Source: Candidatus Jordarchaeum sp. LHC_1308
Lineage (GTDB): Archaea > Asgardarchaeota > Jordiarchaeia > Jordiarchaeales > Freyrarchaeaceae
NCBI GenBank assembly: GCA_019057675.1
Contig: JAHLWX010000006.1
Location: 1-42,559 of the forward strand
Length of the DNA stretch: 42,559 nucleotides
Direction: 5' to 3'
Part shown: one piece after another, positions 24,373 through 24,726 of the stretch
Layout of the letters: the number at the start of each line of letters is the position of its first letter
Numbering within the stretch: the first letter of the stretch is position 1
Position numbers and translations under genes: made by a program
The notes under the pieces: model-generated
The model's database searches: none
What the model saw: the letters and a program-made list of their open reading frames with translations, nothing else
What the model was told of the DNA's origin: nothing

Positions 24373-24529
24373 TGGTGGGCCCGGCGAGAGACCCGGCAGT
24401 GAACTTTCGGACTCGCTGGACAGCCCACAGCCGACCACTCGCGACCTCCCGGTTTCAAACCCGCCGCAAAGCGAGTTATCAGCCGGGCGCTTTAGTCGTT
24501 AAGCTCTAACCAGGCTGAGCTACGGGCCC
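24373..24529 (-). tRNA. tRNA-Ile(GAU) with several insertions (introns), encoded CCA
   Basis: Minus strand: GGGCCCG-TA-GCTC-AGCCTGGTTA-GAGC [14 nt] G-CCCGG-CTGATA [23 nt] A-CCGGG-AGGTC ... CTCGC-CGGGCCC-A-CCA. The 37/38 insertion ACTCGCTTTGCGGCGGGTTTGAA folds as a hairpin in the canonical intron position. The T-arm is also interrupted. Confidence 0.75.
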
Positions 24530-24726
24530 ACTCAGTTTGAGCATTTCCCACGGATTCTTTTATGGTTTTCGGTTTACTATCTGAAAGAGCATCTAGCGCT
24601 TTCTTCCAAACAATCTTCTCAACGCATTACTCCATTTCTAAACCTGTTGTGAAAGAGTAAATTTTATAACAAGTTCCACTTGATGTAGCTTCGAAACCAA
24701 AAGAAAAAAATAGGATGTGATGATTT

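Follow-up and report, generated by a model that had tools for sequence, protein, structure and literature searches.

A tRNA-Ile(GAU) gene with four predicted BHB introns in Candidatus Jordarchaeum sp. LHC_1308

In the 42,559-nucleotide stretch analysed here (the window), the host genome LHC_1308 encodes a 157-nt pre-tRNA-Ile(GAU) at positions 24529..24373 of the minus strand, starting with GGGCCCGTAGCTCAGCC and ending with CGGGCCCACCA. With four inserts of 14, 23, 26 and 16 nt (79 nt) taken out, a 78-nt tRNA including an encoded CCA remains; the introns thus make up half of the gene (79/157 nt). These sizes and the 78-nt remainder are exactly those of the original prediction. As judged from sequence comparison, the locus is very probably a functional, probably single-copy tRNA-Ile(GAU) gene with four BHB introns, at 24/25, 37/38, 53/54 and 59/60. 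Throughout, "mature" denotes the sequence after computational removal of all four inserts, and all features lie on the minus strand.

Exons, introns and BHB motifs

A tRNA template comprising the acceptor, D, anticodon and T stems and the conserved bases was fitted to the gene with no junctions supplied; introns were allowed at nearly any position from 10 on and were scored by BHB pairing. The first scoring, without the inner helix, already gave four introns, but intron 2 lay two bases early. Once the inner intron helix was counted in the score, the fit gave exactly four introns, before positions 25, 38, 54 and 60. The same four junctions were found in G001 (Ca. Jordarchaeum JNZ_1113), a congener represented by a separate MAG. 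The score of 57.8 compares with a best control value of 39.4, and none of 200 controls, in which the interior was shuffled with the dinucleotide content kept constant, scored as high. No tRNA was called by ARAGORN or the Rfam tRNA model in the unspliced window. When all 16 subsets of insert removal were tried with ARAGORN, an uninterrupted tRNA-Ile(gat) was returned only with all four inserts out, in LHC_1308 and in G001 alike. The fully spliced sequence forms a cloverleaf with a GAU anticodon, and the orthologs concur. The blind fit, the G001 ortholog, the differing intron sets of the other orthologs and the shuffles together bear out the proposed minus-strand tRNA-Ile(GAU) with four insertions.

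Archaeal BHB introns have a 4-bp central helix (H) and two flanking 3-nt bulges, and are cut after the second bulge base. All predicted cuts in the LHC_1308 gene fall after base 2 of a 3-base bulge; H has 4/4 pairs in introns 1 and 4 and 3/4 pairs in introns 2 and 3, which are relaxed forms. Relaxed BHB motifs have been reported in archaea having α2β2 endonucleases (PMC4090602).

Exon 1 (24504..24529; tRNA positions 1–24, GGGCCCGTAGCTCAGCCTGGTTAGAG) is identical in G001 and in the congener G002 (Jordarchaeia QC4), and differs in a further congener, G003, at position 9 only. Intron 1 (24490..24503; 14 nt, CTTAACGACTAAAG) was placed by the blind fit at 24/25, with the fully paired H helix TTAG/CTAA and AG^C at both bulges. 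It is missing from G002 and G003, and in G001 it is 15 nt long with an altered loop. The original prediction had located this insert at 25/26; the insert itself is upheld, but 24/25 fits best, the options differing only within an AGC repeat.

Exon 2 (24477..24489; positions 25–37, CGCCCGGCTGATA) carries the anticodon GAT and is identical in G001 and, after splicing, in G002 and G003. Intron 2 (24454..24476; 23 nt) has a different loop in G001. Its canonical 37/38 position and its inner helix CTCGC/GCGGG, both proposed beforehand, were recovered by the blind fit with the inner helix; H is CTGA/TTTG with one U.U mismatch, and the bulges are TA^A and AA^A. If intron 2 were cut two bases earlier, as the first scoring preferred, the anticodon would become GAA (tRNA-Phe). 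However, this cut needs three G.U pairs and overlaps with the inner helix, and scoring with that helix as well as all syntenic orthologs give GAT, so that the probability of tRNA-Phe is practically negligible.

In the preferred tRNA-Ile(GAU), exon 3 (24438..24453; positions 38–53, ACCGGGAGGTCGCGAG) is identical in G001 and G003. Intron 3 (24412..24437; 26 nt) follows at 53/54 in the blind fit, with the inner helix GGTCGGC/GCTGTCC, the H helix CGCG/AGCG containing one G.A, and AG^T at both bulges; it terminates in a GCGAG copy. Covariation is seen in G001, where a compensatory C-G to U-A change is accompanied by a loop insertion of 2 nt. A BHB-like insert in the T-stem region had been expected, with a TCGC/GCGA helix and a GAG bulge. 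The insert was retained and refined to 53/54, but that helix register is out of step with the T-arm and was rejected, since the mature tRNA would then lack G53 and T54; CGCG/AGCG with AG^T on both sides fits.

Alternatively, the gene might contain only three introns, the 26-nt third insert being kept as a long variable arm and the second GCGAG copy serving as the T-stem. Indeed, this second copy pairs perfectly with CTCGC, and the third insert is itself a hairpin. Yet the orthologs have an ordinary 5–6-nt variable loop, ARAGORN rejects the three-intron form unless an intron is allowed, and 53/54 introns with the same helix (H CGCG/CGCG) are found again in the order's tRNA-Ala and tRNA-Lys genes. 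We consider a three-intron gene extremely unlikely.

With four introns, exon 4 (24406..24411; positions 54–59, TCCGAA) contains C55; it is identical in G001 and reads TTCGAA in G002 and G003. The fourth insert, originally sought near 58–60, was refined by the blind fit to 59/60. This intron 4 (24390..24405; 16 nt) has a fully paired H helix, TCCG/CGGG, the bulges AA^A and TC^T, and the T-stem GCGAG/CTCGC as outer helix; 59/60 introns are present also in LHC_1308 tRNA-Met, -Thr and -Arg. Exon 5 (24373..24389; positions 60–73 plus the encoded CCA, TCTCGCCGGGCCCACCA) is identical in G001, G002 and G003.

BHB folding had been proposed as a check. In minimum-energy folds of the LHC_1308 sequence the H helix appears for intron 4 only, as the lone intron left, and forcing the H helices of the other introns costs about 4–6 kcal/mol. 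Because the mature tRNA-Ile itself is not folded to a cloverleaf in the same free-energy model, such folding is neither proof nor disproof of the junctions.

Synteny, exon conservation and intron variation

The tRNA-Ile gene lies about 200–220 bp upstream of an acyl-CoA dehydrogenase gene in LHC_1308, G001, G002 and G003; the LHC_1308 dehydrogenase is 95% identical to that of G001 and 93% identical to that of G002. A BRE/TATA promoter-like element, CCGAAAACCATAAAAG (24557..24572), starts 43 bp ahead of the tRNA, and the element CCGAAAACCATAAAA is conserved 5′ of the syntenic tRNA-Ile in all four genomes. All four introns of LHC_1308 are present in G001. Between these two genomes the exons show 0/78 differences, versus 7/78 aligned positions substituted plus 5 gap columns in the introns (Fisher p = 0.014 against the exons), and the upstream flank has also diverged. 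This excess of intron over exon substitutions indicates purifying selection on the exons. Since the same four introns occur in G001 with identical exons and diverged introns, the alignments exclude an assembly error as the source of the four-intron structure and make pseudogene status improbable.

A pseudogene would be a decayed tRNA-Ile that gained insertions and lost U55, with a second, intact gene being the functional one. The presence of C55 agrees with decay, and with the LHC_1308 assembly only 84% complete, a further copy may have escaped it. Against this stand the 78/78 exon identity with G001 despite diverged introns and upstream flank, the promoter and synteny kept in four genomes, and the 95%-complete genome G003, in which the syntenic locus is the sole tRNA-Ile(GAU) among resolved hits. 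A second intact copy, regarded at the outset as a sign that this one would be a pseudogene, was not found in the LHC_1308 assembly. We therefore rate the pseudogene as highly unlikely and retain the functional four-intron gene. The original prediction had also allowed that its junctions were wrong or that the gene was unusual or defective; unusual it is, by virtue of C55, but the conserved exons make a defect unlikely.

The intron content of the locus varies among close relatives. None of the four introns occurs in G002 or G003 (0/4), each of which has a single tRNA-Ile intron, at 30/31. The mature tRNA-Ile of G003 differs from the four-fold spliced LHC_1308 sequence at positions 9 and 55 only, and that of G002 by U55 and one additional variable-loop base. 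In the sister-family orthologs G005 and G006 there is one tRNA-Ile intron, in the variable region. The intron set might have been swapped wholesale within the genus, one intron at 30/31 against four at other sites. With either one or four introns at a single syntenic locus, the congeners offer a natural series in which to study how introns are gained, lost and spread between tRNA genes. Within this genus, tRNA-Val and tRNA-Ile introns at 30/31 share the form A...GGCGA(T/A).

Proposed splicing route and position 55

Transcription from the conserved archaeal-type promoter would yield a precursor with four BHB introns, in which an (αβ)2 splicing endonuclease would cleave every 3-nt bulge between its second and third bases; RtcB would then ligate the exons, and the final product would be the 78-nt tRNA-Ile. 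Excision is likely to proceed in steps: the 27–31 strand of the anticodon stem is required by both intron 1 and intron 2, and the second GCGAG copy by both intron 3 and intron 4, so that within each pair the introns would compete for one strand.

Two endonuclease subunits, α and β, were found in G002–G007. The α subunit has the catalytic His in alignment to the Aeropyrum pernix enzyme (structures 3p1z and 3ajv, which we take to be the A. pernix splicing endonuclease), and the β subunit is without it. This Jordarchaeia pair, catalytic α plus His-less β, is of crenarchaeal type (loci G000:C82, G000 being LHC_1308, and G003:C1). In the LHC_1308 (84% complete) and G001 assemblies, β was found and α was not. 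No close ortholog of the genes that flank α in G003 was found in the LHC_1308 assembly, and in G001 these genes lie at contig edges, the expected α site falling in a contig gap; with the flanking genes themselves absent or at contig edges, the absence of α is best read as an assembly gap. The rtcB gene is present in all seven relatives (G001–G007) and was not found in the LHC_1308 assembly.

A separate observation concerns rtcB in four sister-family genomes (G007:C7, G005:C175, G006:C93 and G004:C464), where 30 nt containing an in-frame stop interrupt the gene. This insert splits a motif exactly between D and A (LPD/AHQGYGFPIGG, the slash marking the insert), and its removal restores the motif; its cut sites show the BHB pairing CCCG/CGGG, 4/4 in three genomes and 3/4 in one. 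The rtcB genes of G001 and G003 are without it. Judged by its sequence, the insert resembles a BHB intron of a pre-mRNA, lying in the transcript for the very ligase that its splicing would require, and autoregulation is possible; no published report of such an intron in rtcB was found.

A TTCRANY T-loop with a near-invariant U55 is usual in tRNA, though not strictly defining. The mature T-loop of the LHC_1308 tRNA-Ile is TCCGAAT, as in G001, and thus departs from TTCRANY, whereas the one-intron congeners have TTCGAAT (U55). C55 is the sole clearly unusual base of the 78-nt product. Already pointed out in the original prediction, it survives every junction choice tried and is conserved in G001. 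A simpler intron assignment with a normal TTCRANY loop had been named as grounds for abandoning the four-intron structure; hand enumeration of junction sets for U55 gave neither TTCGAAT nor any TTCRANY loop. Junctions yielding a TTCC T-loop were rejected, as they require an 8-nt loop and BHB pairing is absent; the TTCACT segment was rejected as the T-loop, being unconserved in G001. C55 sits within the H helix of intron 4, where it converts a G.U to a G-C pair, and we would guess that it may have been favoured by this intron for that reason. Either editing of C55 to U after splicing or its tolerance is conceivable. With its C55 and competing BHB motifs, the gene lends itself to in vitro tests of splicing order and T-loop requirements. 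In the Odinarchaeia-like genomes G010 and G019, the tRNA-Ile T-loop is TCCAAAT, also with C55, and there is no T-loop intron.

Intron-rich tRNA genes in the lineage and in other archaea

Other tRNA genes of LHC_1308 bear introns of the same classes as tRNA-Ile. According to the template fit, tRNA-Ala(CGC), tRNA-Pro(CGG) and tRNA-Arg(CCG) have three introns each; several further genes have one or two, and ARAGORN accepts every spliced product. In G007, an identical 31-nt intron occupies 53/54 of tRNA-Ala(GGC) and tRNA-Ala(UGC), and a similar one is found in tRNA-Lys(CUU) of G005; such identical or similar introns in different tRNA genes suggest, at the sequence level, spread between them. As to origin by exon duplication, 47 introns show a weak excess of exon-like repeats (sum 230 versus a null mean of 214, p = 0.004), driven by a few introns such as intron 4 of G001 (10 nt) and the 53/54 intron of G003 tRNA-Ala (10 nt), which is a hint of such an origin. 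Half intron, the LHC_1308 tRNA-Ile gene escapes both ARAGORN and Rfam, so tRNA numbers for genomes of this kind come out far too low: the Rfam tRNA model finds only 5–21 tRNAs per genome in this order. At G007:C13:4478-6342 there are about ten tRNA hits in 1.9 kb, most of them of an ordinary 71–75 nt, unlike the order's intron-rich tRNAs; the contig is possibly a virus, plasmid or contaminant.

In the literature consulted, at most three introns are given for an archaeal tRNA gene (PMC8450103, PMC4390854), and no four-intron archaeal tRNA was found in the open-access literature. Passages of a study of Atabey- and Freyarchaeia describe 228 tRNA introns in three genomes, 92–95% of tRNA genes being intron-bearing and more than half having several introns, frequently outside the canonical position (Nat Commun 2024, PMC11291895); they also give Jordarchaeia as the name used by another group for genomes similar to Freyarchaeia. 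Supplementary Data 4 of that article may already list four-intron genes. Because intron-rich tRNA genes are published for Atabey-/Freyarchaeia, the four-intron tRNA-Ile is an extreme case of a known type, above the stated limit yet not unexpected in its lineage. Calling four introns exceptional, as had been done, holds with respect to that limit of three; it is softened by this published richness and by the four-intron tRNA-Ala(GGC) of two relatives of the same order. Collectively, the reading that this is among the first described four-intron archaeal tRNA genes, that its intron set was exchanged, that competing folds order its splicing and that C55 is tolerated or edited seems to us possible, but somewhat short of an even chance as a whole.

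Three systems invite comparison. One, identified in this analysis, is tRNA-Ala(GGC) of the sister-family genomes G004 (G004:C490:13948-14135) and G007 (G007:C42:240001-240186), which also has four introns (33/34, 37/38, 53/54 and 59/60; two in the G005 ortholog and three in that of G003). Sites 37/38, 53/54 and 59/60 are common to both genes, but the remaining intron is at 33/34 rather than at 24/25 as in LHC_1308 tRNA-Ile, and the T-loop is a normal TTCGAAT. The multi-intron tRNA genes described in the passages on Atabeyarchaeia and Freyarchaeia (PMC11291895) belong to the same lineage as LHC_1308. The third comparison, with Thermoproteales, had been drawn from the outset, and multi-intron tRNAs are indeed established there, including the three-intron tRNA-Glu(UUC) of Pyrobaculum calidifontis and tRNA-Pro(UGG) of P. 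islandicum (PMC4390854, PMC8450103). As in LHC_1308, several small BHB introns lie at canonical and non-canonical positions; in Thermoproteales some have to be removed stepwise (PMC4390854, PMC8450103). Yet no more than three introns per gene are reported there, whereas the LHC_1308 gene has four and its host is an Asgard archaeon.
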